From: Bacillota bacterium
GTDB lineage: Bacteria > Bacillota > Sulfobacillia > Sulfobacillales > Sulfobacillaceae
Direction: 5' to 3'
Assembly (NCBI GenBank): GCA_021797675.1
Contig: JAJZZH010000134.1
Span: forward strand, 1-42,207
DNA length: 42,207 nt
Part shown: positions 6,320 to 24,070 of the stretch, piece after piece
Layout of the letters: each line of letters opens with the position of its first letter
How positions within the stretch are numbered: position 1 is the stretch's first letter
Notes under the pieces: model-generated
Told to the model about the DNA's origin: nothing
The model's input: the letters and a program-made list of their open reading frames with translations, nothing else
The model's database searches: none
Position numbers and translations under genes: made by a program

Positions 6320-8020
6320 CTACGTCAGGGGGCGCCAAATCTCTCCGCTCGCGGGCATCAGGGCTCCGGCGGAGGACCCGCCGGCCACATAGAGGGTGGT
6401 GCGGCGCACCGGAAGGGCATACGCGTAGGGGGACAAATTGAGCGTCACGGTCAGCGTGTCCTCGGCGGTCTCTCGCCGGAATTGCAGGATATGCGCGGAT
6501 GCCAAGTCGTGGTCGAGTCGCAGCTCGCCGGTTTGCAGCGCGGGCTCGGTGGCCCGCAGATGAATGAGGGCGCGCAACACGGCATAGGTCTCGGGTGGAT
6601 GGACCATCCGCTCCCACGCCATTCCCGCCCGGCAGAGGGGATCCGCGCCGCCGGCCATGCCCAGCTCGTCCCCGTAATACAGCATCGGGATGCCGGTCCA
6701 GGTCATCAAGAGCATCATCAGCAACCGCCACCGCTCGGCATCCCCGTCGATCAGAGTGATGATGCGCTCGGTGTCGTGACTGCCCAACAAATTCCAACTG
6801 GCCCGGTTGGCCGGACCGGTTTGGGCATAGCGGAGGGTATCTAAGCGGCGGGCCATTTCGGCCACCGACAGCTTGCCGCCGACAAAGTAGTCGAGCAGCG
6901 TTTGCCGAAAGGGATAGTTCATCGTCCCGTCAAACTGATCGCCACCGAGCCACGGCGTCGGATCGTGCCATACTTCCCCCACAATGAGCGCCTCAGGGTT
7001 CTTAGCCTTGACCTGCTGACGAAACTTCCGCCAAAACGCGTGATCCACTTCATTGGCCACATCCAGCCGCCAACCGTCAATGCCGGCCTTTTCCAGCCAA
7101 TAGACACCGACCTGCAGAAAGTATTCCTCCACCGCCGGGTTGGCAAAATTCAATTTCGGCATCGTGGGAATGCCCACGCCAAAGGTTTCGTAGTTGACCG
7201 GGTCGGTCGTCACCCGGTCGCCACCGGCAAAGGAATACCATTGCCAGTACGGAGAGTGCGGTCCCTGGCGAATCGCATCGCGGAAGGCAAAAAAACGGTT
7301 GCTGGTATGGTTGAAGACGGCATCCAAGATAACCTTCATACCCAGCGCATGGGCCGCCGCCACCAAATGGATCAGATCTTCCTCGCCGCCCAGGCGGGGG
7401 TCGACCGTGTAGTAATCTTCGGTGTCGTAGCGGTGGTTGCTCGGTGAGCGAAAAATCGGCGTTAAATACAGCAGCGTGATGCCCAAGGCGGCGAGATACG
7501 GGAGTTTTTCGCGAATGCCCCGCAGGGTGCCCCCATAGAAACTGGTCGGTTTCGGCTCCCGGTCCCAGGGCACCCGCCGAGGCGAAGGCTCGTCGGCGTC
7601 GGAAGGGCGAAAGAAACGATCGGGAAAGATATGATAGCCGATGGCCCCCGTCACCCAACTCGGCACCTGAGGGGTGTCCCGCTGCTGAATGCGGGCGAAC
7701 TGAAACGGCTCATCGCGACCGAGGTCGTTGCCGGCTCCGTTGGCGCCCCACACGATCGTCTCCCCAGCCTCCGTCACCACTTCGAAGAGATACTGAAAGC
7801 GCCCGGTCTCAAGCTCAATCTTGGCCTGGTAGAGGTCTCCGACGCGGCTCCGGCCCACCTTGACCATGCGCCGGGAACGGTCCCGACGGGTCTGGTAGCG
7901 GTCGCCATAGTGCACCCACACCGCCACGACCCGCAGGTCACGGAGGGTGAGGGTGAGGCTAAGGGCCGTCGGCGACACCGGATAGGCATCCGGCGCCCAG
8001 GGCAGGTGGCGTACCAACAT
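6320..8020 (-). CDS. Intracellular GH13 alpha-glycosidase (cyclomaltodextrinase/neopullulanase/maltogenic amylase type)
   Basis: This enzyme hydrolyses maltodextrins or cyclodextrins in the cytoplasm; there is no signal peptide. It has 566 residues, with an N-terminal CBM34-like domain (about 1-115) and then the GH13 barrel. The signature regions are complete: ILDAVFNHTS (about 231-240), GWRLDVANEVD with nucleophile Asp320, IVGEVW with acid/base Glu349, and GSHDTERI with Asp416. The MNYPFR motif is typical of GH13_20. A near-ideal AAGGAGGA lies 5 bases before the ATG. It follows the LacI gene by 32 bases and acts after uptake by the MalEFG importer. Unlike the two secreted GH13 enzymes in this cluster, it keeps both conserved active-site histidines. 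Confidence 0.92.
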   Translation of the reverse strand: MLVRHLPWAPDAYPVSPTALSLTLTLRDLRVVAVWVHYGDRYQTRRDRSRRMVKVGRSRVGDLYQAKIELETGRFQYLFEVVTEAGETIVWGANGAGNDLGRDEPFQFARIQQRDTPQVPSWVTGAIGYHIFPDRFFRPSDADEPSPRRVPWDREPKPTSFYGGTLRGIREKLPYLAALGITLLYLTPIFRSPSNHRYDTEDYYTVDPRLGGEEDLIHLVAAAHALGMKVILDAVFNHTSNRFFAFRDAIRQGPHSPYWQWYSFAGGDRVTTDPVNYETFGVGIPTMPKLNFANPAVEEYFLQVGVYWLEKAGIDGWRLDVANEVDHAFWRKFRQQVKAKNPEALIVGEVWHDPTPWLGGDQFDGTMNYPFRQTLLDYFVGGKLSVAEMARRLDTLRYAQTGPANRASWNLLGSHDTERIITLIDGDAERWRLLMMLLMTWTGIPMLYYGDELGMAGGADPLCRAGMAWERMVHPPETYAVLRALIHLRATEPALQTGELRLDHDLASAHILQFRRETAEDTLTVTLNLSPYAYALPVRRTTLYVAGGSSAGALMPASGEIWRPLT

Positions 8021-8052: not shown

Positions 8053-9105
8053 CTAGGACCGCTCGGTGAGAACCGGGGCGGGGGCCCGTCCGGTGGAACT
8101 GCGCAGAATAATCCGGGTTTTGACGATGACGCGCTGCACGGCGCGCTCGGGGTTGGCGATCTTCTGCAGCAAGACCTCTGCCACCGCCGTGCCCAGCTGT
8201 TCCATGTGCACCTCAACCGTGGTCAGCGGGGGGATGGAAAACTCGCTGGCCGGAATATCGTTGAAGCCAATCACGGACAAGTTCTCGGGCACGATCCACC
8301 CCAAATCGTGGGCGGCCTGCAGCGCGCCGATGGCAATTCCGTCGTCGGAGGCGACGAGCGCCGTCGGCGGCACGCTCGACTGCAGCAGGGTGGAACAGAG
8401 ATTGTATCCGCTCTGCCACTCATACTGCCCCAGGAGGATGTAGGCGTCCGATACCGGCAGCGAGGCCTGGGCCAACGCCTGCCGGTAGCCGAGGAGGCGA
8501 TCTTCGGTCACCGCCAAATCCGGCGCACCGCCGATGAAGGCGATCCGCTCATGGCCTAGATCGATGAGGTGCTTGGTCGCCGTGTAGGCCGCGGTCACAT
8601 TGTTATTGTCGACATAGCTCACTTCATTGACGCAGGGTCGGCCCAACACCACCGCGGGAAAGCGCTCACGCTGGATCAACTGCATGGCGGGCTCATTGAC
8701 GCGGCTGCGCAGGAGGACGATGCCGTCAATCCGGCGGCCGTGAATCCAGTCGGCCAGGATCTCCTCGGCATCCCCCCCGGCGGTGGATAGCAGCACGTCG
8801 TAGCGCGCGGCGGCCGCCGTGCGGGAAATCCCCTTTAACACGTGCATAAAGAACGCATTATTGAAAAAATCGTCCACATCGGTCAACGCCATCACGCCCA
8901 AAATGCGCGTCGTCTTGGTCACCAAGCCGCGGGCGGCGATGTTGGTGCGGTAATTCAGCGCCCCGATCGCTTCGGCAATCCGCTCCTTGGTGTCGGGCTT
9001 GATCCCGGCAAACCCGTTGAGATAGCGGGAGACGGTGGTGGTCGACACGCTGGCGCGGCGCGCCACATCCTTAATCGTTGCCTGAGTTCCAAGTTTTTCC
9101 ACCAT
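8053..9105 (-). CDS. LacI family transcriptional regulator of the alpha-glucan cluster
   Basis: This 350-residue repressor has an N-terminal LacI helix-turn-helix (TIKDVARRASVSTTTVSRYL, about residues 9-29), the hinge helix (RTNIAARGL) and a periplasmic-binding-protein-like sugar-sensing domain ending in TTVEVHMEQLGTAVAE. The ATG at 9105 comes one base after the TAA of malG, so translation is probably coupled. The RBS AAAGGA is inside the malG end. It likely binds the two similar operators at 12334-12348 and 17766-17779, both with the central AACGTT typical of LacI-type sites, with a maltodextrin as inducer; this is inference. Because it is inside the operon it would control, autoregulation is expected. 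Confidence 0.9.
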   Translation of the reverse strand: MVEKLGTQATIKDVARRASVSTTTVSRYLNGFAGIKPDTKERIAEAIGALNYRTNIAARGLVTKTTRILGVMALTDVDDFFNNAFFMHVLKGISRTAAAARYDVLLSTAGGDAEEILADWIHGRRIDGIVLLRSRVNEPAMQLIQRERFPAVVLGRPCVNEVSYVDNNNVTAAYTATKHLIDLGHERIAFIGGAPDLAVTEDRLLGYRQALAQASLPVSDAYILLGQYEWQSGYNLCSTLLQSSVPPTALVASDDGIAIGALQAAHDLGWIVPENLSVIGFNDIPASEFSIPPLTTVEVHMEQLGTAVAEVLLQKIANPERAVQRVIVKTRIILRSSTGRAPAPVLTERS

Positions 9106-9106
9106 G

Positions 9107-10003
9107 TTATCCTTTCACTCCGCCCATCAGCCCCGAAGCGATATACTTCTGCAGGAGGCCAAAGGTTACGGCCAGCGGAACGGCCGACAGCAGCGCCGCG
9201 GCGGCAAAATATCCCCAGTTCTTGGCAAACTGGTTGCTGATGAGGCCGTACATGCCCAAGCCCAACGTGTAGTTATTCGGCGTTTCCAAGATGGTCCCGG
9301 CCAGAATGTACTCGCTAAACGACCCCATCAGGGTGAAGATGAAAATCACGATCAGCATTGGACGGGCCAGGGGCAAAATGATGCGTGAGAACCGCTGCCA
9401 CACCGTCGCTCCGTCGACAAAAGCGGCATCGTCCAGCTCCTTGGGAACCGAGTCGAAAAATCGCTTTAAGAGCCAAATATTAAAGGCGCTGCCGCCCATC
9501 AGGATGAGCATGTAGACCCAGAGCTCGTTGAGCAGATTCAGTTCCGCCAGCGCCGTGTAGATGGCGGCCAGGGCGAGAAAGTTCGGAAACATTTGCAGGA
9601 TAATCAGCACCATGAGACCGTATTTCCGGCCCCAAAACCGGAGGCGGGAAAAGGCAAACGCCGCCAGCGCGGTGACCAACACCTGTCCCAGGGAGACGGT
9701 GAACCCGACCAGCGCGCTGTTTTTCACCCAGATCAAGAAGTTGGTCTGATGAAACAGGTACGCAAAGTTGCCAAAGGAGGGATGGCTAGGAAACAGACCC
9801 AGGCTGAAATAGGCGTTGGTCGGATTGAACGCCGCCTCGACCACAAACCACATCGGCGCCAGGGTGAGGACAATCACCACCCAGATCACGACGCGCGAGA
9901 TCCACAGGGTGACGGCTTCATGCCGCGGGATTCCCCGGCGCGTCCGCACCCGCGCCCGGGAGGCGGCGCGTTGAGCTTCGACCCCCACAACGTGTTGGCT
10001 CAT
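9107..10003 (-). CDS. MalG-type sugar ABC transporter permease
   Basis: This is the inner-membrane permease of a carbohydrate (CUT1) importer, 298 residues. It has about six hydrophobic segments, beginning with VVIWVVIVLTLAPMWFVV (about residues 37-54), and the EAA loop ELDDAAFVDGATVWQRF, which contacts the ATPase. The start overlaps the malF stop in TAATG, with GAGGAGGCGG upstream. The basic N-terminal tail (RARVRTRRGIPRHE) is cytoplasmic. It works with the malF and malE neighbours. No ATPase gene is present nearby. Confidence 0.92.
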   Translation of the reverse strand: MSQHVVGVEAQRAASRARVRTRRGIPRHEAVTLWISRVVIWVVIVLTLAPMWFVVEAAFNPTNAYFSLGLFPSHPSFGNFAYLFHQTNFLIWVKNSALVGFTVSLGQVLVTALAAFAFSRLRFWGRKYGLMVLIILQMFPNFLALAAIYTALAELNLLNELWVYMLILMGGSAFNIWLLKRFFDSVPKELDDAAFVDGATVWQRFSRIILPLARPMLIVIFIFTLMGSFSEYILAGTILETPNNYTLGLGMYGLISNQFAKNWGYFAAAALLSAVPLAVTFGLLQKYIASGLMGGVKG

Positions 10004-10971
10004 TAGGTATCCGCCTCCTCAAAAGCATGGGTGTACCGCATGTTGAACCAGCTTAAGGTTCCTACGATGATAAATAAGATCACGGAAATCGCCGCCGCCC
10101 AGTTGTACAGGTTGAACGTCAGCGTCATTTTATAGGCGGCGGATGCCAAAATGTCCGTGTACCCGACAAACTCATTGGTGGGTCGGGGCGGCCCGCCGCC
10201 CGTCAACAAATACACTGCGTTGAAATTGTTGAAATTAAACGCGAAGGAAGGGATGAGCAGCGGCAACGACAGCTTCCAGATCTCCGGCAGCGTAATAAAG
10301 CGAAATGCCTGGGGTTTCGAAGCCCCGTCGATGGCGGCGGCCTCGTGCAATTCGGCCGGCACGGCCTGCAGCGCGCCCAAGGACACGGTCATCATGAAGG
10401 GAAACCCTGCCCACAGATTCACCATCAGGATCGAGATCCGAGCCCAGAACGGTTGACCGAGCCAGTTAACCGCAGGGATGCCGAAAAGATGCAAAAACCC
10501 GTTAATCTGTCCATAGTCCTGATTGAGGAGTCCCTGCCAGGCGAGGATGCTAATTAACGCAGGCACGGCCCAGGGGATGATGAGCAGCGAACGGTAGATG
10601 GAGGATTCCCGCATGTGGCGGTTGTTGAGCACGACGGCCAGGAACAGGCCGACCAGGTAATTGACGACGGTCGCCCCCACCGCAAACATAAACGTCCATT
10701 CCAAAGTAGGAATAAAGACCGAAAATAACGGGTCGTTGGGGTTGAAAAGGGCGATGAAATTCTGCAAGCCCACCCATTGGTAGGAAAGAAAATGATTCGC
10801 ATCAAAATTGGTAAACGCAATGTAGATGGCAAACACCATCGGCACCAGACTCAAGACGGAAAGGCTCAGAATCGCCGGCGACAAGAAGCCGTAGGCGGCG
10901 AGCCGATCCTTTCCCGTCACGCGTGCGCGGTGGACCCGAGCCGGGCGTTGTGCAGCGGTTGAAGAAGCCAT
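10003..10971 (-). CDS. MalF-type sugar ABC transporter permease
   Basis: This is the partner permease of the maltodextrin importer, about 322 residues, with six or more membrane segments and the EAA loop ELHEAAAIDGASKPQAF. The start at 10971 is chosen because AGGGAGGA lies 6 bases upstream; the frame is open to 11007. The 3' end overlaps malG by one base (TAATG). It lies downstream of a hairpin that separates it from malE, which would lower permease expression relative to the binding protein. Confidence 0.92.
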   Translation of the reverse strand: MASSTAAQRPARVHRARVTGKDRLAAYGFLSPAILSLSVLSLVPMVFAIYIAFTNFDANHFLSYQWVGLQNFIALFNPNDPLFSVFIPTLEWTFMFAVGATVVNYLVGLFLAVVLNNRHMRESSIYRSLLIIPWAVPALISILAWQGLLNQDYGQINGFLHLFGIPAVNWLGQPFWARISILMVNLWAGFPFMMTVSLGALQAVPAELHEAAAIDGASKPQAFRFITLPEIWKLSLPLLIPSFAFNFNNFNAVYLLTGGGPPRPTNEFVGYTDILASAAYKMTLTFNLYNWAAAISVILFIIVGTLSWFNMRYTHAFEEADT

Positions 10972-11017
10972 TTCGATCCTCCCTGTCGCGCGGGGCCAAG
11001 TCGCCACATCATGGAAA

Positions 11018-11052: not shown

Positions 11053-12291
11053 TTATCCCGCGTTAGCGACCTTAATACCCTGCTTGACGTCTTTGACGAA
11101 GTCCCGCGCACCCACGGCAGGACTCAGTTTGCCATTGATGATGTCTTGAATCACCGACATGGCCGTCCATACTGACTGCATCTGGGGAATGTTCGGCATC
11201 GGCTTGGCATACTTAAGCTGATCCGAAAAGGCCTTGAACATGGCGCTGTTGCGCACCAACGGCGATTGCCGCACCCCAGTCAGCGCCGGCAACTGCTGGG
11301 ACAGCTGGAAATAGGCCCGCTGGGCGGGGGCGGTGTCCAACGCCTGGGCCAGGCTAAACGCCGCCGCCTTGTTGGGCGCGCGCGAATTGACGAAGGTGGT
11401 GATCACGCCCAAGAACGGCGTCATGTGCTTGCCGTTCGGTAACGTCGGCATCGGAGCGACGCTGAAGGGCAGCTTGGCTTTTTGGTAGTTGGGCACATCC
11501 CACGGCCCGTCGATCGTCATTCCGATCTTGCCGGCCGCAAACTTGGCGGTGGCCACGCCATAGTTGGAGCTGGGAGTCATCCAGTGATACTTGGCATCCA
11601 TTTCCCGCAGGAGCGTAAACCCGGCAATCGCCCCCTTGTTGGCCAGGCCTAGCACATTGGGGTTTTCCACGCCATTTCGGGTCTTAAACACGAAGCCGCC
11701 CATGCCGCCGATGATGGCGTAATTGTAGTAGAAGTTGTGCTGACCAAACATGAACCCGTACTTATTGGCGTCGGCGACAAATTGCGCCCACGTCTTGGGC
11801 GGAGTCTTAATCATCTTGGTGTTATAGAACAGGGCCGTGCTCTGCACGTAGTCGGGCAGGGAATACACCTTGCCGTAAATGCGGAGCGCGGCGTCGATCG
11901 GCTTGATATATTGGCCGGGATGAAACGCCGCCTTGGGCACCGGCGCCACCAGTCCCTCGCGGACAAAAGTGCCTAGGTTATCGTGAGGCATCCCGAACAG
12001 CACGTCAGGCCCCTTGCCCGCCCGGGCGGCGGTAGCATAGAACTGAAATCCCGACGAGTTGTTGCTCTGATTGACGATTTGCACCTTGTCCCCGTGCACC
12101 TTGGCCCAATGCTGAGCCAGCTTGACGACTTCTTGATAGATGGGCGGACCCTGCCAGGTCCAAAGCGTCAGCGTCTGCCCTCGGGGCACGTTGGCCACCG
12201 CCCGGTGCGGAGCACCGGTGGCGGCCACGGAGAGGGATGCGGCCAGCATGGCTGCACTGACGGCGCCCACGGTCCACTTTTGCTGCTTCAT
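11053..12291 (-). CDS. MalE-type extracellular sugar-binding protein
   Basis: This is the solute-binding protein of the maltodextrin importer, about 412 residues. It has an N-terminal signal peptide (KWTVGAVSAAMLAASLSVAATG) and the binding-protein fold starting at LTLWTWQGPP, with motifs such as IDGPWDVPNY. There is no lipobox cysteine, which is unusual for a monoderm bacterium, where such proteins are mostly lipoproteins. The start is ATG 12291 or the adjacent GTG 12294; AAAGGAGG lies 10 bases before the GTG, which makes GTG a fair alternative. The frame is open further up, but the promoter and operator fall there, so the longer frame is not used. Confidence 0.9.
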   Translation of the reverse strand: MKQQKWTVGAVSAAMLAASLSVAATGAPHRAVANVPRGQTLTLWTWQGPPIYQEVVKLAQHWAKVHGDKVQIVNQSNNSSGFQFYATAARAGKGPDVLFGMPHDNLGTFVREGLVAPVPKAAFHPGQYIKPIDAALRIYGKVYSLPDYVQSTALFYNTKMIKTPPKTWAQFVADANKYGFMFGQHNFYYNYAIIGGMGGFVFKTRNGVENPNVLGLANKGAIAGFTLLREMDAKYHWMTPSSNYGVATAKFAAGKIGMTIDGPWDVPNYQKAKLPFSVAPMPTLPNGKHMTPFLGVITTFVNSRAPNKAAAFSLAQALDTAPAQRAYFQLSQQLPALTGVRQSPLVRNSAMFKAFSDQLKYAKPMPNIPQMQSVWTAMSVIQDIINGKLSPAVGARDFVKDVKQGIKVANAG

Positions 12292-12333: not shown

Positions 12334-12348
12334 ATGAAAACGTTGCCA
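12334..12348 (-). promoter_or_regulatory. LacI-type operator upstream of malE
   Basis: On the minus strand the site reads TGGCAACGTTTTCAT. It has the AACGTT core of LacI-family operators and matches 17766-17779 (TGGTAACGTTTGCA). It lies roughly 10-25 bases after the expected transcription start of the malE promoter, the right place for a repressor to block transcription. Confidence 0.6.
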
Positions 12349-12363
12349 TAGGAAAACAGGTTC

Positions 12364-12392
12364 AGTGTATACGTCTATGAATATACTGTCAA
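12364..12392 (-). promoter_or_regulatory. Sigma-A type promoter of malEFG-lacI-GH13 operon
   Basis: On the minus strand a consensus TTGACA (12387-12392) is separated by 17 bases from TACACT (12364-12369). The spacing is ideal, and the site lies in the AT-rich gap between the secreted GH13 gene and malE. So malE starts its own transcription unit. Confidence 0.65.
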
Positions 12393-12521: not shown

Positions 12522-14837
12522 TTAGGAAGGGTGCGCCGCGGCGAACCACATGTCGGCCCCGAAGCGCGCCAAATGCAGGGTTGCGGAACCGTGCTGGATC
12601 GTCAACCGCGCCTGCGAAGAAGAACTCCCCAGCGCAGCGTTGAGCACGGCGCCATCAGGCAGCAACGCGCCGATGGGCACGCGCACGGTGCGGGCGGGCC
12701 CGTTGTTCACGGCTATCAGCGCCGTACCGTTGGGGGCGGGATGGCCCAGCGCGTCACGGCCATGGCGAATCGTTCGCGCATAGACGAAAACGTTTCCGTT
12801 GGCATAGAGCGGCTGGAATGCGCCCGCCTGCAACACGCGATGCGACTTGCGGATCTGGCCCAAGCGCTGGAAATAGGCGATAAGGGATTGGTTTACCCGC
12901 CCCCAGGGATAGGCGGCGCGGTTGAGCGGATCGCGGTAACCAATCATGCCGGCTTCATCCCCGTAGTAGATATCGGGCACCCCGACAAACCCATATTGAA
13001 AAGCGGCCACCTCTCGGAGTTTGGCGAGCCCCATCGCCTGTTGGGCGGGAGTTGGCCGCCAGGTCGCTTGTTGATACGCGGTGAGCGTGTTGGCGTCGGG
13101 AGCTCCCTCGAGGATGGTCAGGATGCGCTCGGTATCCTGCGAGCCCAGGAGATTCATCTCGGCATACATGGCCGGCGGGGGATAGGATTGCAACATCTGC
13201 ATCAGCGTGTTGCTAAAGGCGCTCGCCCCCATTTGATAATTCTGCACGTTGCCGTCGTTGTAGGTGCCGCGGAAGAAAGAAATCACGGCATTGCGAAAAG
13301 GATAGTTCATCGTCGAATCCCACGTGGTGCCCGTCAGCCAGTCGGTCCCGTTGTCGTTGGTAGGATTGTTCCAATCCTCACCGATGATGGCCGCCTGGGG
13401 ATCGCTCTGCTTGACCGCATGACGAAATGCCGTCCACCACTTCACCGAAAAATTGCTGTTGTCGGCCGAATCCAGCCGCCATCCCGACGCACCCATCGCC
13501 AGCCAGTAACGGGACACCGCGTTCTTGGCGGGATTTTGCGGCTGCTTTTTATCGTAGCGCCCATAGATGAACTGCTGGAAACTCTTCGATCCCGTGTTGG
13601 TCAAGGGCAGGGTATCGTTTCCCCACCAGCCGGCGTACGGCGGATTGCTGCCTGGCTGCCATTGAAACCAGTGATAGTAGGGAGATTTCAGCTTGGGATG
13701 CAGATATTCTTGCCAGGCTCCGACGCCGGGGTATTGGCCAAACTTGTTGAAGTACAGGCTGTTGCTGCCGGTATCCTCGAAGACCCCGTCAAGAATCAGG
13801 TGCATGCCCCGCGCTTTGGCCGCCTTGGCCAAGTCGACGAAGGTCTTCAAGGTGCCAAAGCCGGGATCGATCCGCAGGAAATTGCCGGTATCGTACTTGT
13901 GGTTGGTGTCCGCCTGAAAGATTGGCGTCAAATAGAGGGTGTTCACCCCCAGATGCTGCAGGTAGCCGAGTTTGTCAATGATCCCCCGAAGGTCTCCGCC
14001 AAAAAAGTCGGTATTCCACTGCCCGTCGCCTCGCAGGGCGCGTTCCTGGCGGTAGTGCGGACTGTTCGGATTCACCGCCACGTTGGGATCATAGGGCGTG
14101 CTGTACCAATTGCGGTGAAACTGGATCGGTACCAAACCCTCCTGCCCGTTCGCCAAGGTGCCTACCGCCGCCTGGGTCTTGGGGTTTTCGTCGTTGGCGT
14201 GGTTTCCGTTATAAAACCGATCGGGAAAGATTTCGTAGATAATGCCATGGCGCAGCCACGTCGGGGTGGAAAATCCCCGCGCATAGACCGTGATCGCGTA
14301 GTTGACCGCGCCAAAGGGGTTCGGGTAGGCCGCCCCCACCCCGCCGTAGCCGGACCCGTTATTAGCATAATAGATGACCTGGCTCCCACGCCGCACCTTA
14401 AACGCGTAACTCATGACCCCCGGTTGGCGCAGGTCCGCCGCCGGAATCGTGCCCTGCCAGACTGCGCGTCCCGCCGTTTGGCGCAGACCGGGGGCGCTCT
14501 GGATGGCCGTTCGGGGCATCCGCTGCATGGTAATGGTCGCGATCGCGCTCGGGTTCGCGTTCACACCGATCAGTTTGATCACCGCCGAGGTCAACGATGC
14601 CGGCCCCACCAGCCGCAAACGCACCGTGGATCCGGTGGGGGCAGCGCTAAACGGGGACCGGTAAAACGTGTTAAACGAATTCGCGTAGAGCTCTCCCTGC
14701 CATCCGGTGGTGTGGGCCGCAAGACGCCGCCCGGCCGCAACCGCTACCCCGGGCATCGTCCACCACCCCGCGAACAGGATGGAGCCCATCATCATCACCG
14801 CGATGCCTGCCCGCGGCAAACCTTGTTGACTTCCCAT
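12522..14837 (-). CDS. Secreted GH13 alpha-glucan hydrolase with altered active-site regions
   Basis: This is a 771-residue exported enzyme with a signal peptide at about 1-36 ending VAVAAG. It has an N-terminal beta-sandwich-like domain (about 45-190) and a GH13 barrel. Nucleophile Asp456 (GWRLDSADN), acid/base Glu487 (IIGEDW) and Asp568 (LLGSQDTERI) are present. Region I reads LDGVFEDTG instead of the usual DxVFNHTx, so the conserved Asn and His are Glu354 and Asp355. Region IV has Gln567 where most GH13 enzymes have His. Both changed histidines normally bind the -1 glucose, so specificity or mechanism may differ. RBS GAGGAGG precedes the ATG. It lies 33 bases after the CBM25-bearing enzyme, in one operon. 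Confidence 0.88.
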   Translation of the reverse strand: MGSQQGLPRAGIAVMMMGSILFAGWWTMPGVAVAAGRRLAAHTTGWQGELYANSFNTFYRSPFSAAPTGSTVRLRLVGPASLTSAVIKLIGVNANPSAIATITMQRMPRTAIQSAPGLRQTAGRAVWQGTIPAADLRQPGVMSYAFKVRRGSQVIYYANNGSGYGGVGAAYPNPFGAVNYAITVYARGFSTPTWLRHGIIYEIFPDRFYNGNHANDENPKTQAAVGTLANGQEGLVPIQFHRNWYSTPYDPNVAVNPNSPHYRQERALRGDGQWNTDFFGGDLRGIIDKLGYLQHLGVNTLYLTPIFQADTNHKYDTGNFLRIDPGFGTLKTFVDLAKAAKARGMHLILDGVFEDTGSNSLYFNKFGQYPGVGAWQEYLHPKLKSPYYHWFQWQPGSNPPYAGWWGNDTLPLTNTGSKSFQQFIYGRYDKKQPQNPAKNAVSRYWLAMGASGWRLDSADNSNFSVKWWTAFRHAVKQSDPQAAIIGEDWNNPTNDNGTDWLTGTTWDSTMNYPFRNAVISFFRGTYNDGNVQNYQMGASAFSNTLMQMLQSYPPPAMYAEMNLLGSQDTERILTILEGAPDANTLTAYQQATWRPTPAQQAMGLAKLREVAAFQYGFVGVPDIYYGDEAGMIGYRDPLNRAAYPWGRVNQSLIAYFQRLGQIRKSHRVLQAGAFQPLYANGNVFVYARTIRHGRDALGHPAPNGTALIAVNNGPARTVRVPIGALLPDGAVLNAALGSSSSQARLTIQHGSATLHLARFGADMWFAAAHPS

Positions 14838-14870
14838 GGTCCGTCCTCCTCATTTGATCCGTTGATTTGC

Positions 14871-17594
14871 TTACTGCACCGGCACGTTATAGTTGAAGCC
14901 GGCGTTGTTGTCCCAGGTGCCGCTTTGGTTTTGGAAGGCCGCGTTGAATTCGGTGGCGCCGCTCGGCATCGTGATCGTGGCCGCCCACGTCCCGTTTCCC
15001 TGGGGCCGCATCGGGGTATCGGTGACGTCGCTCCATCCGTTAATTCCCCAGTGCATGTCGACGGACGTGGCCGTCGGCGCCAGTGAGCCATAGTAATACA
15101 CGGTTTCCGTCTGGCCGGCGGTGAGGGGTTGGGGATTCGTGGTCACCGGGCTTGGCATCTGAATCTCCAGATTGTAATTGTTGCCGCCGTTGTTGTCCCA
15201 GGTGCCATTTTGGTTTTCGAAGGCCGCATTGAGCCGCGTGCCCACCGGGATCTTCACGGCGGCCCGCCAGGATCCGTTGGGCTCTTGGGTCATGGGCGTA
15301 TTGATCACCGACTGCCATCCGTCGTAACCCCAGTGCATGATGAGCGACGTCGATCCCTGGGCTAGCGATCCGTCATAATAAATCGACGCGGTCTGGCCCG
15401 CGGTGAGTGGGCTCGGATTCGAACTGACCGTCCGCAAGCTGGCACCGGCCACCAACGGCCCGCCCGCCTGCTCCAAAATGGTCGCGTAATGCCCGTCTAG
15501 CGTCATGGAAAGATTGCCTTGAGCATCAACCGTATAATGCGAGGGCTCCGTGACTCCTGCCACTAACGGCGTCACGTTGGTCAACGTGCTGCCAATCGGG
15601 CACCCGGCGTCGGCGGCGGAAATGGTCTCGGTTTGCGCCGTGTTGCTATTATTCAACACCACGATCATCCGGTAGTTGGCGTCAAAGCGTGCATACGCAT
15701 AGACATTCGTGCTATTGTCGGCGGCAAGGGTCAAGAATGACCCGTCCCTCAGCGCAGAGTACTGATGGCGAAGGGCGATCAGATCGTGATAGAGCTGAAA
15801 AACGCTGTTGCCGCCGTTGGCCACCTGACTCCAGTCGAACGTCCAGCGCTTGCCGGGGTCGTTGGTCCCCCCGCCCAGCATGCCGTATTCGTCGCCATAG
15901 TAGATGGTCGGCAGCCCTGGGTAGGTAAACTCTAAAAATGCCCCCAGATAATCCTTCCAGTAGTTGGGGGTGCCGCCGTAGGGCTCGATAAACGTGCTGC
16001 CGTTCGGCTCCGTGTACGTTTTGTACTGAATCGCCTCCGCGGCTCGCTCGCCAAAGCGCGGCGTGTCCTGGGTGCTGAGCTGGTTGACCTGGGTCAGCTG
16101 GGCGGCCCGGGGGGCCTGGATGAGGGTATTGTGCAGCCACTGGTTGAGCTGCGTGGGATCGATGCTGGCCGCGTTGAACCCCTCGCCATAACCGGTAACC
16201 CATTCGGAGGCCGGGTTTAAAAACCCGTTATAGTTGACCTGACCATCCCACTGGTGACCGCCCAGCCACTCCCAGGCCTGGGAATTGTTGAAAAATTCGC
16301 CGAAGACGTACGCATTGGGATTCACCGCCTTGACCGACCGTCGAAATTCGCGCCACACGGAGTGGTTGGTGGGATCTTGATAGTTGCCGTTGGCCTGCGG
16401 CGCATACCCGTTTTTCCCGACGTCGCCCGGATCGTCAAGGCGCCAGCCGTCGATGCCGTAGGGCGGACTGAGATAGTGTTGCGCCACGCTGGTGCTGGTG
16501 CCATACATTTCGGCCCGCAGCGACATCGATCCGTAATTCAACTTCGGCAGGTTGGCGGTCCCGTAAAAGGTGGCATATTGCGTTGGCCAGTTGGTAAACG
16601 TGTACCATGGGTAATATTGGCTCGACTGACTCGCTTGCGCGGACTGAAACCAGGGATTGCTCGCGCCGGTAAAGGTGAAGGGCCCGTCGAGCACGATGCG
16701 CCCCTTTTGGCCGGCCGTGTCGGTGGATGCATGCAGGTCGGCGATGAGCTGCTTGAGCGCGGTGTTCCCGCCGAAATGGGGATCGACGGCAAGGTAGTTT
16801 TGGGTGTCATATTTGTGGTTGGTGTTGGAGGTGAAGATGGGGGTTAAATAGACGATGTTGGCCCCCAGCGTCTTCATGATGTACGGCAGTTTTTGGTCTA
16901 TACCTTCGAGGTCCCCGCCGGCAAAGGCCACCTCATCGCTGCCCGAAGGGTCGCCGAGCTCGGGATCTTGCCCCCACGCCAACTGCACCGTCGGATGGCC
17001 ATACCACGAATATTCGCCATTGGTGACGTCATTCTCCGTATTGCCATTGTAAAACCGGTCCACAAAAATCTGGTACTGAACGCTCCCCTGAGCCCAACTG
17101 GGGGTGGTAAACGCGGGAGCAATCCAAAAGTCCCCGCCAGTGGGGTTGGTGGTATTGATCGACGGCGGCGTCGAAGACGGGCCGAAACCGTTGTAATACG
17201 CCGTACTGGAGCCATCGTTGGCTTGAAAGTAGTAAAACTGGGGGTCGGGACTCGCGGGCAGGGTGGCGCGCCAGAAGGCATAGCGTCCGTTGACATCCGC
17301 CCCGGCATCGGTCATGGCGTAGGCGCTAGTCGTTTGGGTGACCGTATTGTAATCGATGACTTCGGCACTGGTTAGATTCTTGTTGGTAGCCCGCAATGTC
17401 AGCGTAACCGGGTCGACGGTCGACGGCTCCTGCGGGTGGAAATACTGCGGCCCTTGGTCGGCAAAGAGGCCGTCCCACTGCACCGTGGAAGTTGCCGCTT
17501 GGGCCGACAAAGGCCATGCCAAGACGCCAATCCCCAGCACGGCCGTGATGGCCAGCGCCGACCTAGACGATCGTGACCTTCGCCGTGCGTCCAT
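14871..17594 (-). CDS. Secreted GH13 amylase-type enzyme with two C-terminal CBM25-like starch-binding domains
   Basis: This is a 907-residue exported alpha-glucan hydrolase. The signal peptide (about 1-34) ends in SAQAA. There is an N-terminal domain (about 38-165), then a GH13 barrel with nucleophile Asp387 (GIDGWRLDDPG), acid/base Glu433 (VFGEFF) and Asp510 (LSTQDTPRF). Region I is LDGPFTFTG, so the usual Asn and His are Thr307 and Phe308, and region IV has Gln509 instead of His. The C-terminus carries two tandem CBM25-like modules (about 728-812 and 822-907), each with an HWGxxGW motif and a WDNN motif, which bind raw starch. It is first in the cluster, with its own promoter and operator. 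The RBS is weak (GGGGG about 10 bases upstream). Confidence 0.88.
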   Translation of the reverse strand: MDARRRSRSSRSALAITAVLGIGVLAWPLSAQAATSTVQWDGLFADQGPQYFHPQEPSTVDPVTLTLRATNKNLTSAEVIDYNTVTQTTSAYAMTDAGADVNGRYAFWRATLPASPDPQFYYFQANDGSSTAYYNGFGPSSTPPSINTTNPTGGDFWIAPAFTTPSWAQGSVQYQIFVDRFYNGNTENDVTNGEYSWYGHPTVQLAWGQDPELGDPSGSDEVAFAGGDLEGIDQKLPYIMKTLGANIVYLTPIFTSNTNHKYDTQNYLAVDPHFGGNTALKQLIADLHASTDTAGQKGRIVLDGPFTFTGASNPWFQSAQASQSSQYYPWYTFTNWPTQYATFYGTANLPKLNYGSMSLRAEMYGTSTSVAQHYLSPPYGIDGWRLDDPGDVGKNGYAPQANGNYQDPTNHSVWREFRRSVKAVNPNAYVFGEFFNNSQAWEWLGGHQWDGQVNYNGFLNPASEWVTGYGEGFNAASIDPTQLNQWLHNTLIQAPRAAQLTQVNQLSTQDTPRFGERAAEAIQYKTYTEPNGSTFIEPYGGTPNYWKDYLGAFLEFTYPGLPTIYYGDEYGMLGGGTNDPGKRWTFDWSQVANGGNSVFQLYHDLIALRHQYSALRDGSFLTLAADNSTNVYAYARFDANYRMIVVLNNSNTAQTETISAADAGCPIGSTLTNVTPLVAGVTEPSHYTVDAQGNLSMTLDGHYATILEQAGGPLVAGASLRTVSSNPSPLTAGQTASIYYDGSLAQGSTSLIMHWGYDGWQSVINTPMTQEPNGSWRAAVKIPVGTRLNAAFENQNGTWDNNGGNNYNLEIQMPSPVTTNPQPLTAGQTETVYYYGSLAPTATSVDMHWGINGWSDVTDTPMRPQGNGTWAATITMPSGATEFNAAFQNQSGTWDNNAGFNYNVPVQ
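14874..15131 (-). repeat. CBM25-like module coding repeat, copy 2
   Basis: This encodes the last module of the GH13 enzyme (residues 822-907). It shares TAGQT, YYxGSLA, MHWG, GW, NAAF and GTWDNN with copy 1, at both protein and DNA level. It arose by internal duplication. Confidence 0.8.
15159..15413 (-). repeat. CBM25-like module coding repeat, copy 1
   Basis: This encodes residues 728-812 of the same enzyme, with HWGYDGW and GTWDNNGGNN motifs. A short linker separates it from copy 2. Confidence 0.8.
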
Positions 17595-17765: not shown

Positions 17766-17779
17766 TGGTAACGTTTGCA
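17766..17779 (-). promoter_or_regulatory. LacI-type operator at the GH13 operon start
   Basis: The plus strand reads TGGTAACGTTTGCA, a close match to the malE operator in core and flanks (TGG-AACGTTT-CA). It begins about 8 bases after the -10 box, overlapping the transcription start. The same LacI protein (8053-9105) probably controls both promoters. Confidence 0.62.
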
Positions 17780-17786
17780 TGATAGC

Positions 17787-17815
17787 ATCCTAACCACCCT
17801 AGATCGTTCTGTCAA
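17787..17815 (-). promoter_or_regulatory. Sigma-A type promoter of the secreted GH13 operon
   Basis: On the minus strand TTGACA (17810-17815) is followed after 17 bases by TAGGAT (17787-17792). The operator sits directly downstream. Confidence 0.62.
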
Positions 17816-20002: not shown

Positions 20003-21721
20003 ATGTCGAAGAAGAAATATTATCCCACTGCGCGACGGAGGCGATCGCGAATGGCAACCATTACCAAACGGAAGGTCCACGGGCACACGTATTATTATCT
20101 GGTAGAGTCCAAACGCATTGACGGAAAACCTCGGTTAGTCTTACAGAAGTATTTAGGGCGGGCGGAAGACGTCGTGGCCCAGTTAGAAGGTCAGACCACA
20201 GAGCCCCAAAGCGTGGTCGTCGTGGAATATGGCGGCAGTCACGCCTTGTTGCAGATAGCGCGACGGCTCCGCTTGGTGGAGCACATTGACGCGGAGGCAC
20301 CCAGACGCGCCCAAGGGCTGTCCGTCGGCACCTACATCCTACTGGCCGTGCTCAACCGCGTGTTGGCGCCATACAGCAAAGCCGAGTTGGCCGACTGGTA
20401 TCATGGTACGGCGCTGTATCATGAACTCCCGGTCCGCGACGCGGACCTCACCAGTCAACGGTTTTGGGACCACATGGACTATTTGTCGGCCGAGCGGATC
20501 CGGGCCATCGAAACCGCGTTGACGCAACATATGGTGCAAGAATTTCGGCTGGACTTGTCGACCGTGGTCTACGATGCGACCAATTTTTACACCTGGATAG
20601 AGGATACCAACACCCCGTCTGAGTTGGCTCAACGGGGCCATCCAAAGCAACCTCCGACGGACCTGGGGACAATCGGTCTCGCTCTGTTGGTGACGACGGA
20701 TTTCAACATCCCGCTCCTGCACACCGTCTTTCCGGGCAATCGTGATGACAGCAAGCAAGTTCAAAGCCTTACGGAGGACCTGGTGGCACGCTATGCAGGG
20801 CTGCGGCAGGGCGTTGAGCGAGCCACCCTGATTTACGACAAGGGGAATAATTCGCAAGCGAACCCAGCGGCTGTGGATGCCAGTACCTTTCATTTTGTCG
20901 GATCCTTGCAGGCCAATTCACCGCCGGATCTGTTCGACATTCCTATCCAGGAATTTGTGCCCGTTCCCGAGCATGGGGGCGTGACCGCCTATCGGACGAC
21001 GCGGAAAGTCTTTGGGGTCGAGCGGACCATCGTGGTCACCTATAACGAAGCCCTCTATTTAGGGCAATGCCAGGGCGAATTGACGCGGCTGCGCAAGGCG
21101 CAGCAACGCCTGCAAGCGATTCAGCAGAGTGTGCAGAAAGCTCGGCGGCCACCGACGGTGGCCGCGTTAACTCAACGCGTGACGCAAGCCGTCGCCCAAG
21201 CAGGGCCTCCCATTACGCAGTGGATTGCCCCCCGCGTGGAAGGCAACGACGAGCATTCGAGGTTGACCTACACCATTGACTATGAGGCGTTTCATCGCTG
21301 GGGAGAGCGCCATGGGGGAAAAACCATTCTGTTTACGGATCACGACGACTGGTCCACGGCGGACATTATAACCGCCTATCGGGACGCCTGGCATGTGGAA
21401 TCGACGTTTCGCGATCTCAAGCACCCGTTGTGGATTCATTGGCAACCGCAATTTCACTGGACGGATGACAAAATTCGGGTACACGGCCTGATCTGCATCT
21501 TGGCGGTCACGCTGGCGCATCTCTTGCGTCGGGAATGTGCCCGGGCGGGCGTCGATCTCAGCCTGCCCGCCTTGCTGGAAGAATTGACGACAATTCAGGA
21601 GGTAGCGTGGATCTTTCCGTCGAATCATCGCACGTACTCCTACGTTACCCTGACGAATCGCTCCGCTCGGCAACAAGAGCTGATGAAGCTCTTGTCCATT
21701 CCGATGCCTGCGGCCCCATAA
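20003..21721 (+). CDS. IS1634 family DDE transposase
   Basis: This 572-residue transposase catalyses cut-and-paste movement of its element. It has a basic N-terminus (KKKYYPTARRRRSR). The DDE triad is visible as Asp in TVVYDATNFYTW, Asp in TLIYDKGNNS and Glu in AWHVESTFRDLKHPL, the Y-x2-E-FRDLK signature of IS4/IS1634-type enzymes. An insertion with coiled-coil character (RLRKAQQRLQAIQQ) lies between the second Asp and the Glu. The RBS AGGGAGA precedes the ATG. The length is normal and no lesions are seen. Confidence 0.92.
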   Translation: MSKKKYYPTARRRRSRMATITKRKVHGHTYYYLVESKRIDGKPRLVLQKYLGRAEDVVAQLEGQTTEPQSVVVVEYGGSHALLQIARRLRLVEHIDAEAPRRAQGLSVGTYILLAVLNRVLAPYSKAELADWYHGTALYHELPVRDADLTSQRFWDHMDYLSAERIRAIETALTQHMVQEFRLDLSTVVYDATNFYTWIEDTNTPSELAQRGHPKQPPTDLGTIGLALLVTTDFNIPLLHTVFPGNRDDSKQVQSLTEDLVARYAGLRQGVERATLIYDKGNNSQANPAAVDASTFHFVGSLQANSPPDLFDIPIQEFVPVPEHGGVTAYRTTRKVFGVERTIVVTYNEALYLGQCQGELTRLRKAQQRLQAIQQSVQKARRPPTVAALTQRVTQAVAQAGPPITQWIAPRVEGNDEHSRLTYTIDYEAFHRWGERHGGKTILFTDHDDWSTADIITAYRDAWHVESTFRDLKHPLWIHWQPQFHWTDDKIRVHGLICILAVTLAHLLRRECARAGVDLSLPALLEELTTIQEVAWIFPSNHRTYSYVTLTNRSARQQELMKLLSIPMPAAP

Positions 21722-21750
21722 TCCGTATACAATACGCAGATCGATCGCGG

Positions 21751-21773
21751 AACCCCTTGCGGCGCAAGGGGTT
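21751..21773. terminator. Hairpin after the IS1634-like transposase
   Basis: This is a 10-bp perfect stem AACCCCTTGC / GCAAGGGGTT with a 3-base loop, 30 bases after the transposase stop and inside the element. It ends in TTTATT, so it is a plausible weak intrinsic terminator that may also insulate the gene from read-in. Confidence 0.65.
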
Positions 21774-21800
21774 TATTGCTGCCCGAATCCTTACCTTAGG

Positions 21801-21814
21801 GAAACTTCTGCTAG
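21801..21814 (-). repeat. Right inverted repeat of the IS1634-like element
   Basis: GAAACTTCTGCTAG is the reverse complement of 19847-19860. Confidence 0.8.
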
Positions 21815-21854
21815 CAAATCGGCGCAGCGCAAAAAGCTCTATAGGGGAACAGCA

Positions 21855-21883
21855 TTGAAATTGGCTACACAGACACATATAGT
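21855..21883 (+). promoter_or_regulatory. Promoter of the RHH-PIN toxin-antitoxin pair
   Basis: TTGAAA (21855-21860), 17 bases, then TATAGT (21878-21883), just upstream of the antitoxin's RBS GGAGA and GTG start. The promoter lies just outside the right IS end. Confidence 0.6.
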
Positions 21884-21907
21884 AGGAGTAGTAAGGAGAT
21901 GGTATAG

Positions 21908-22168
21908 GTGATACGTAAACAAATTTTCATCGAGGAGCAGCAAAACCAAGCGTTAAAGCGGCTGGCACAACGAACCGGGAAGTCTGAGGGCGCCTTGATT
22001 CGGGAAGCGGTTGGGCGTCGCCTAGCCGAAGAGCAAGATGCTACCGCACTATGGGAGACGCTGCTGGAACGTTGGTCACAAGACCCCGTGAGCAACCAAC
22101 CTCGGACGTGGCGCCGGGATGACCTGTATCAGGAACGGTTGGAGAAATTCGATGCCGACCCTCATTGA
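21908..22168 (+). CDS. Ribbon-helix-helix (CopG-type) antitoxin
   Basis: This 86-residue protein has an N-terminal ribbon-helix-helix DNA-binding domain (RKQIFIEEQQNQALKRLAQR, then TGKSEGALIREAVGRRL). Its acidic/aromatic C-terminal tail (RRDDLYQERLEKFDADPH) should wrap the toxin. The start is GTG at 21908 with GGAGA 10-15 bases upstream. Its stop overlaps the PIN toxin start by 17 bases. It neutralises the toxin and probably represses the operon. Confidence 0.85.
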   Translation: MIRKQIFIEEQQNQALKRLAQRTGKSEGALIREAVGRRLAEEQDATALWETLLERWSQDPVSNQPRTWRRDDLYQERLEKFDADPH

Positions 22169-22553
22169 TACCAATATCCTGGTTTATGCTTCTGGAATAG
22201 ATGGCGATCGGAGTCGACAACAGACGGCGGTTGAAGCCTTGCGATCGCATCGCGTAGATGGTGCCTTGGGGGTCCAAGTATTAGCGGAATTCGCCAATGT
22301 CCTCATTCGCAAACGCAGGCCGCTCGGAGCGATTCAAAGGGATGTCGCCGTATTGGAACAAACTTGGAAAATAGTCGCGCCAAACGACAAAACTGTTTCG
22401 CTAGCGCTTGCAGGGGTCGAGAAGCATCAGATGAGCTTTTGGGATGCAATGCTGTGGGCGACCGCTAAGCAACACGGGCTCACGACGATTCTCAGCGAGG
22501 ACGGTCCCACGGGGACAACGGTTGGTGGAGTCCTGTACCTGTCGCCGTTTTAA
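22152..22553 (+). CDS. PIN-domain (VapC-type) ribonuclease toxin
   Basis: This is about 133 residues. The acidic metal-binding residues of PIN nucleases are visible: Asp in LIDTNILVYA, Glu in VLAEFANVL and Asp in SFWDAMLWATA. It is an RNA-cutting toxin held by the RHH antitoxin upstream, with which it overlaps by 17 bases. ATG 22152 is chosen as the start because it gives the standard MPTLIDTN PIN opening. The length is normal and it looks intact. Confidence 0.85.
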   Translation: MPTLIDTNILVYASGIDGDRSRQQTAVEALRSHRVDGALGVQVLAEFANVLIRKRRPLGAIQRDVAVLEQTWKIVAPNDKTVSLALAGVEKHQMSFWDAMLWATAKQHGLTTILSEDGPTGTTVGGVLYLSPF

Positions 22554-22795
22554 AGGGGTCGTTGACAAAGATGCGTGTGCCTGCTTATCTCCCCGGTTCG
22601 ACCGAATCGTCGACCGCTCGAGGCCACGACGGGCCCGCATCGTTGGTCCGGAGTCGGAGGGCAATCTTGGTCAAGGTCCACACGACCCTGGCAAGCAAGG
22701 CCCCATCAAAGTCCTCCCTAATCTCACAGCGTATAACGTTGAAATTTAGAGTGAACCTTTTCTGTCTGAAGGATCGGCTATCATGCAATTATGCA

Positions 22796-24070
22796 TACAG
22801 ACCCGACCCGGCGACCTACCAAGAAACATGGGTCCCAGATTGGGCATCCTGTCTCACGGTGCGCCTCGTCCGATCGGACGAGCGAGAACGCTGGCGGACG
22901 CTCATGACCCAGCAGCATTATCTCGGATTCCGGGGATCGGTCGGGGAATCGCTCTATGATGTGGCGGAACTGGATCAAGAAAACTGGGTAGCCCTGTTGG
23001 GCTGGGCCGCTGCGGCATGGATGTGCCGAGCCCGGGACCCATGGATTGGCTGGTCGCGCCCGCAACAATGGGAACGTTTACGTTTTGTGGTGAACAATGC
23101 CCGCTTTCTGATCCTCCCCGACGTCCACATCCCGAATCTCGCCTCGAAGGTGCTCGCTCTCAATTGTCGCCGTCTGGCCGACGACTGGGGCACCGTGTAC
23201 GATCATCGGATCGCTTTAGCGGAAACCTTCGTGGACCCGAGCCGATTTGCCGGCACAGCCTATCAGGCTGCGAGGTGGCAATGTCTGGGGCACACGCGGG
23301 GATTTGCGCGACATCAGCACCACTACGTGCGGTAGGCTCGTCCGAAGACGGTGTGGATCCGGCCCTTGGGGCCGGCTAGCCGGGCGAGTTTGATCGCCCC
23401 ATTCGTGTCCTCTCACGTACCAGGAAGTGCGCCGCTGCCTTGAATTGGACGGGTCCCGGTGGGCTCCAAGAGTACTTGGCGCGGGTGGTCGATCCCCGTC
23501 ATCGCCGAGGTGTCCGTCACCGGGTGGACCAGGTGTTGGTGCTGGCGTTGGCCGCCATGTTGGCCGGTCAACGGACGTTTGTCGCAATTGGCGACTGGAT
23601 TCAAGACTTGCGACCGGCGCAACGTGCAGCCTTCGGCTGTCCCCGGTGGGGAGACACGTATAAGGTGCCGAGTGCTTCAACAACTCGATAAATACGCCTT
23701 AGATACCGTGCTGGGCCAGTGGCTCACGGCCGAATCTGTGCAGACCGGGGACGCAGTTGCCATCGATGGGAAGAATGCACGCGGGTCCGGGCATGGAGCC
23801 CGTAAGCGCCCTGTCCATCTCCTTTCGGCATTGGTACATCGCACCGGTCAGATGCTCGGCCAAGTCGACGTGGATATCACAACCAATGAAATCCCGAAAC
23901 TGAAGGACCTCTTGGATCCGCTTGATATCGCAGGTGCAGTCGTCACTACCGATGCGCTCCATACACAGCGCGCAGCGGCGCTGCCCGTCCATGTAAGTAT
24001 CATCAGACTGGCCAAGAGCCTCGCGGCTGAAATCAACTCCAATCACCTGCCCAAACGCCACAGAAAATGA
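22796..24070 (+). pseudogene. DUF4338-ISAs1 fusion transposase, multiply broken
   Basis: The N-terminal part (to 23335) matches the DUF4338/DruA-like domain, with RTLMTQQHYLGFRG, VALLGWAAAAW, RFVVNNARFLILP and LAETFVDPSRFAGTAY. A TAG at 23333 stops it, but the same frame goes on with the typical linker PKTVWIRPLGPAS. A shift near 23440 leads to the ISAs1 N-terminus (VDPRHRRGVRHRVDQVLVLA). A second, deletion-type shift near 23672 leads to the ISAs1 catalytic part (VAIDGKNARGS, TNEIPKL, VVTTDALHTQ), which is cut off at about 23980. The true start is uncertain. The fusion is a known transposase arrangement, so this is a dead element, not a Druantia defence gene. Confidence 0.8.

Follow-up and report, generated by a model that had tools for sequence, protein, structure and literature searches.

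Loss of conserved active-site histidines in two secreted GH13 enzymes of a Sulfobacillus-family bacterium, with possible adaptation to low pH

AmyA and AmyB, two secreted GH13 enzymes encoded in the window (the whole 42,207-nucleotide stretch of DNA that was analysed), have lost two of the three -1-site histidines that are otherwise universal in the 89 relatives compared. The histidine-to-glutamine change in CSR-IV arose twice, independently in the AmyA and AmyB lineages. The kind of enzyme is known; what is new is that histidines were lost on two separate occasions, with the substitutions now shared by the whole AmyB clade and none of the three histidines left in one relative, L065. In the reading that we consider best supported, if unproven (probability about 0.6), AmyA and AmyB are active secreted hydrolases of starch or pullulan with a -1 subsite remodelled for low pH.

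The -1-site histidines overall rank with the most highly conserved residues of GH13, and to our knowledge their roles have been studied mainly via mutants of neutral or alkaline enzymes. The high conservation of the CSR-I histidine in particular is documented (PMC11239784). Here, evolution removed such histidines at least twice from presumably strong-acid enzymes with an intact catalytic triad, and in one case all three are gone. These natural losses with the triad intact make the contribution of the histidines, and its pH dependence, directly testable, and AmyA versus TVAI, AmyB versus amylopullulanase, and AmyB versus the cytoplasmic AmyN are natural comparison pairs. Starch enzymes that work in acid are of interest to industry as well.

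Genes and active sites of AmyA and AmyB

Both enzymes are encoded by intact open reading frames on the minus strand. AmyA (907 aa, 14871..17594) is TVAI-like (GH13_21-type) and comprises an N-terminal domain, the barrel and two C-terminal starch-binding modules, whereas AmyB (771 aa, 12522..14837) belongs to a separate clade within the neopullulanase/amylopullulanase group. Pfam matches to PF00128 (160.2 bits for AmyA and 167.6 bits for AmyB) are far above the cut-off of 22, and a Sec-type signal sequence could be read in each protein, in line with the initial annotation of both as secreted. AlphaFold models have confident barrels (mean pLDDT 81.5 and pTM 0.83 for AmyA; 88 and 0.90 for AmyB). 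In a search among solved structures the closest fold to both models is TVAI.

The starch-binding modules of AmyA are a tandem CBM25/CBM53 pair (PF03423, PF16760) at the C terminus (14880..15422, minus strand). A secreted glucoamylase-like protein from another member of the family (L155:3287-6190; genome G414, contig C98) also ends in two modules. Given that this pair is 46% identical to that of AmyA, the arrangement appears to be common to unrelated starch enzymes.

We compared the active sites in an alignment of 94 GH13 sequences of the neopullulanase/amylopullulanase group. The 89 comparison sequences comprise genome sequences, AmyN (a third GH13 of the same operon), and TVAI and TVAII. TVAI is represented by the 5z0t mutant, in which CSR-II is altered (AQY to VNE), and nothing is concluded from the CSR-II residues of that row. 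The catalytic Asp/Glu/Asp are retained in both enzymes, as first noted, together with the CSR-II arginine (R385/D387/E433/D510 in AmyA and R454/D456/E487/D568 in AmyB). As the nucleophile (Asp), the acid/base (Glu), the third Asp and the Arg are all in place, both enzymes should work by the usual retaining mechanism.

The alignment confirmed the aberrant motifs that had drawn attention to the pair of genes. CSR-I reads DGPFTF in AmyA (16671..16688, minus strand; residues 303-308), with Asn replaced by Thr (T307) and His by Phe (F308), and DGVFED in AmyB (13773..13790, minus strand; residues 350-355), with Asn replaced by Glu (E354) and His by Asp (D355). In CSR-IV the His before the third catalytic Asp is Gln in both, giving TQD in AmyA (16065..16073, minus strand; residues 508-510, Q509) and SQD in AmyB (13134..13142, minus strand; residues 566-568, Q567). 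Each of these two histidines, highly conserved though not strictly defining features of GH13, occurs in 89/89 of the other sequences and is absent from AmyA and AmyB.

The initial annotation described the -1 site as lacking its usual histidines, which holds for CSR-I and CSR-IV but not for the beta2 histidine. That residue, likewise present in all 89 other sequences, aligns with a retained histidine in the motif NHKYDT of both AmyA (His260, 16815..16817, minus strand) and AmyB (His313, 13899..13901, minus strand). The CSR-I Asn was also flagged; it is indeed replaced, but the position is variable among the 89 others (Asn in 60, Ser in 28, Gln in 1), which makes its loss less meaningful than first thought. 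The genome encodes two further GH13s, and in both the CSR-I and CSR-IV histidines are canonical: one is an oligo-1,6-glucosidase-like enzyme from a different contig, the other the intracellular AmyN, which was correctly recognized as keeping these residues (DAVFNH and SHD).

Relatives and separate origins of the substitutions

Three orthologues of AmyB were identified in the class: L066/L122 (72% identity), L065 (64%) and L067 (50%, from another family). All three (L065, L066 and L067) have DG(V/A)FED together with SQD. Chance or sequencing error could be ruled out for the AmyB substitutions, since the same residues are carried by three other genomes. The L065 orthologue (L065:1435-3768) reads NNKYDT, DGAFED and SQD, so that all three -1-site histidines are replaced; the beta2 histidine, replaced by Asn, is lost only there. 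Values of dN/dS against AmyB are 0.09-0.16 across the orthologues and, because dS is saturated, are read only as a sign of purifying selection. A search for AmyA orthologues in 398 Bacillota genomes, 154 from the class and 59 from a different class, as well as in plasmids and solved structures, found none closer than about 44-45% identity, the best relatives at that level being TVAI and L036. The AmyA substitutions therefore rest on a single sequence.

In a maximum-likelihood tree built without the CSR-I and CSR-IV columns, AmyA is sister to TVAI (SH-aLRT 96) on a long branch whose unusual composition was flagged by the tree program. AmyB and its orthologues form their own clade (support 100) beside, not inside, the adjoining amylopullulanase-like groups, at a fork that the tree does not resolve. 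AmyN groups on the side of TVAII (PDB 1bvz), a GH13_20 neopullulanase/cyclomaltodextrinase, and with its canonical residues serves as a control. Parsimony places 2 changes to Gln at CSR-IV on this tree, and a tree uniting the five Gln enzymes was rejected by the AU test (p-AU 0.0008). Together, these results exclude AmyA and AmyB as paralogues with one ancestral change, and the initial view of them as a specialised pair is wrong as regards descent.

AmyA groups with TVAI and has the CSR-V sequence LPKLN (neopullulanases have (M/L)PKLN), the N-terminal domain and a TM-score of 0.84 on the target, features of a GH13_21-type enzyme, "type" denoting likeness throughout and not formal CAZy subfamily membership. 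Identity between AmyA and TVAI is 45% over the fold match and 53% in the barrel. The two share the N-terminal domain, barrel and CSR-V, but TVAI has DGVFNH and NHD where AmyA has DGPFTF and TQD, and AmyA has in addition its two C-terminal starch-binding modules.

AmyB has LPLTN in CSR-V and SADN in CSR-II, which differ from the GH13_39-type set (LPNVN or LPVIK; VADE). By tree path, the nearest named-type neighbours of its clade are Bacillota amylopullulanase-type GH13s (such as L008, L056 and L064; 37-45% identity), which we take to be GH13_39-type. These are long open reading frames with DGVFNH or DGVFSH and SHD, in contrast to AmyB, which is much shorter and lower in charge and has DGVFED and SQD. 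The substitutions might have been normal in some described subfamily, a case raised at the outset, but in the tree the nearest relatives, including TVAI, keep the histidines, and we found no described subfamily that accounts for the changes.

Operon setting and substrate

The genes for AmyA and AmyB are followed in the same direction (minus strand) by those for an extracellular MalE-like sugar-binding protein (11053..12291; the signal peptide needs the ATG at 12291, and the longest open reading frame starts at 12549), a MalF-like permease (10003..11007), a MalG-like permease (9107..10003), a LacI-family regulator (8053..9105) and AmyN (6320..8020), a GH13_20-type cytoplasmic neopullulanase/cyclomaltodextrinase that provides an internal control. 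In two relatives the transporter, LacI gene, AmyN and AmyB are also clustered; AmyA was not seen there. In a third relative, from the same genus, the contig starts at the binding protein, so the absence of AmyB may be an assembly effect only.

Putative regulatory sites, assigned by consensus match only, precede two of the genes. A promoter-like TTGACA-17-TAGGAT followed by a LacI-type operator-like sequence, GCAAACGTTACC, is located ahead of AmyA (17767..17815, with the operator-like part at 17767-17778; minus strand), and TTGACA-17-TACACT followed by operator-like GGCAACGTTTTC is located ahead of the binding protein (12336..12392, with the operator-like part at 12336-12347; minus strand). Operator-like matches of the GCAAACGTT type number 9 in the window, versus 3 expected, and 0/100 shuffles reach 9.

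This setting points to use of starch and maltodextrin. We predict that AmyA and AmyB are endo-hydrolases acting on starch, pullulan and similar alpha-glucans, and that they perform the extracellular step for a maltodextrin uptake operon under LacI control in an acidophile of the Sulfobacillus family. The polymer would be bound and cut outside the cell, the fragments imported via the binding protein, MalF and MalG, and the imported fragments finished in the cytoplasm by AmyN. An uncommon glucan, proposed initially as one possible substrate, is unsupported given the CBM25/CBM53 modules on AmyA and the maltodextrin-type transporter and neopullulanase nearby.

Elsewhere in the genome (G000, contig C166:3514-7914; L001), a secreted protein judged by eye to be GH66-like adjoins an ABC permease and an oligo-1,6-glucosidase-like GH13 with canonical histidines, which suggests a separate locus for dextran or isomaltooligosaccharides.

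Acid habitat, proposed mechanism and alternatives

The genome that contains the window falls in the family of Sulfobacillus, shared with S. thermotolerans, and it is from this membership that we take its organism to be an acidophile. Cultured Sulfobacillus grow near pH 2 (PMC6172347). The sulfocyanin-type marker PF06525 was identified in S. thermotolerans and G364 but was not found in the window's genome, so it was not used as proof of acidophily there.

Charged residues (D+E+K+R) make up 14.6% of the AmyA barrel and 13.0-16.8% of the barrels of the AmyB clade. The figure for AmyN is 22.5%, and the median for the 89 others is 23.9%, with only TVAI (14.9%) below 19.4%. When TVAI is left out of the comparison, the five substituted enzymes are the five lowest in charge of 81. 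For AmyA, charge depletion was dropped as proof of acid adaptation, since the barrel of TVAI, its sister, is just as poor in charge (14.9% vs 14.6%) and the signature is thus not independent; the source organism of TVAI is not known as an acidophile. Mature AmyB has 6.1% acidic residues and a pI of 9.6, and the binding protein 4.7% and a pI of 9.9. In these features the two proteins resemble a maltose-binding protein from Alicyclobacillus that is stable in acid (PMC6172347). The initial suggestion of low-pH adaptation is favoured by the acidophile family, charge depletion in the AmyB clade, two origins of His-to-Gln in secreted enzymes and the histidines kept by cytoplasmic GH13s of the same genomes; its charge argument fails for AmyA.

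We propose that each lineage remodelled its -1 subsite on its own, by His to Gln in CSR-IV of both and, in CSR-I, by His to Asp in AmyB or to Phe in AmyA. At a pH of about 2, Gln, Phe and protonated Asp would be neutral and His cationic, and Gln could still hydrogen-bond the -1 glucose while uncharged. The histidines would serve catalysis at near-neutral or alkaline pH and be useless or harmful in acid, a cause that we infer, as we do the activity, substrate and pH optimum of the two enzymes. The CSR-IV histidine corresponds to His-327 of a cyclodextrin glucanotransferase. According to PMC8153356, which cites Nakamura et al. 1993, transition-state stabilisation in that enzyme involves its three active-site histidines, with His-327 being particularly important when the pH is alkaline. 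Without exposure to such conditions, an enzyme could dispense with the CSR-IV histidine. In an amylase of B. subtilis, engineered His-to-Asp changes are reportedly not at active-site histidines. These changes, in the catalytic domain, gave better performance in acid (PMC6172347). The electrostatic argument is not one-sided, since a protonated histidine could lower the pKa of the nucleophile and so help in acid.

An acid amylase from the moderately thermophilic acidophile Alicyclobacillus acidocaldarius has a pH optimum of 3 (PMC6172347) and resembles AmyA and AmyB as an amylase of an acidophile. It may retain its histidine, which would count against the acid reading. More tentatively, and with somewhat less than even odds in our estimation, secreted GH13s of the Sulfobacillus class may convergently dismantle the -1-site histidines, down to none of the three in L065, and this may be how they generally achieve catalysis near pH 2, with the AmyB clade as a new acid-adapted GH13 subfamily.

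Changes at the -1 and +1/+2 subsites could instead fit an uncommon bond pattern or transglycosylation rather than pH. TVAI and TVAII, named neopullulanases, cut several bond types, and CSR-II, III and V of AmyB are SADN, GEDWNN and LPLTN, versus VADE, GEVWED and LPNVN in its relatives; CSR-II and III of AmyA differ too (DDPGDV and GEFFNN). Altered specificity may therefore contribute. As the whole explanation we consider it unlikely, given the starch-binding modules, MalEFG-like transporter and neopullulanase of the operon, the separate dextran-use-like locus on contig C166, and the convergence of AmyA and AmyB on Gln despite their differences at specificity positions.

Still less probable is that strong acid outside the cell simply made the histidines worthless, so that they drifted away without benefit. 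The AmyB clade does vary at one CSR-I position (V/A) and at beta2 (His/Asn), and the CSR-I replacements in AmyA (Thr, Phe) are unrelated, but all four sequences of the AmyB clade (50-72% identity, dN/dS 0.09-0.16) have the same Glu, Asp and Gln, and the same Gln arose twice. We give least credence to weakly active or dead proteins with a starch-binding or scaffolding role. Each has indeed lost two residues that are invariant in the 89 compared sequences; against this are the fully kept triad and Arg, the low dN/dS of the AmyB clade and the confident, intact barrels of both models. BmaN1, a secreted amylase with a natural and far more aberrant GH13 active site, in which the catalytic triad itself is altered (Asp to His), still hydrolyses starch (PMC5347038). 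BmaN1 has lost a catalytic residue, whereas in AmyA and AmyB the triad is intact and only supporting histidines are gone.

Outside the operon, the window also contains two near-identical open reading frames (293-874 and 1606-2613, the first shorter) that by eye look Rpn/PD-(D/E)XK transposase-related. On the other side, a transposase-like open reading frame (20003-21721, 572 aa) and more transposase-like fragments to about 24070, also recognized by eye, suggest that the flank near 20003-24070 is rich in mobile elements.
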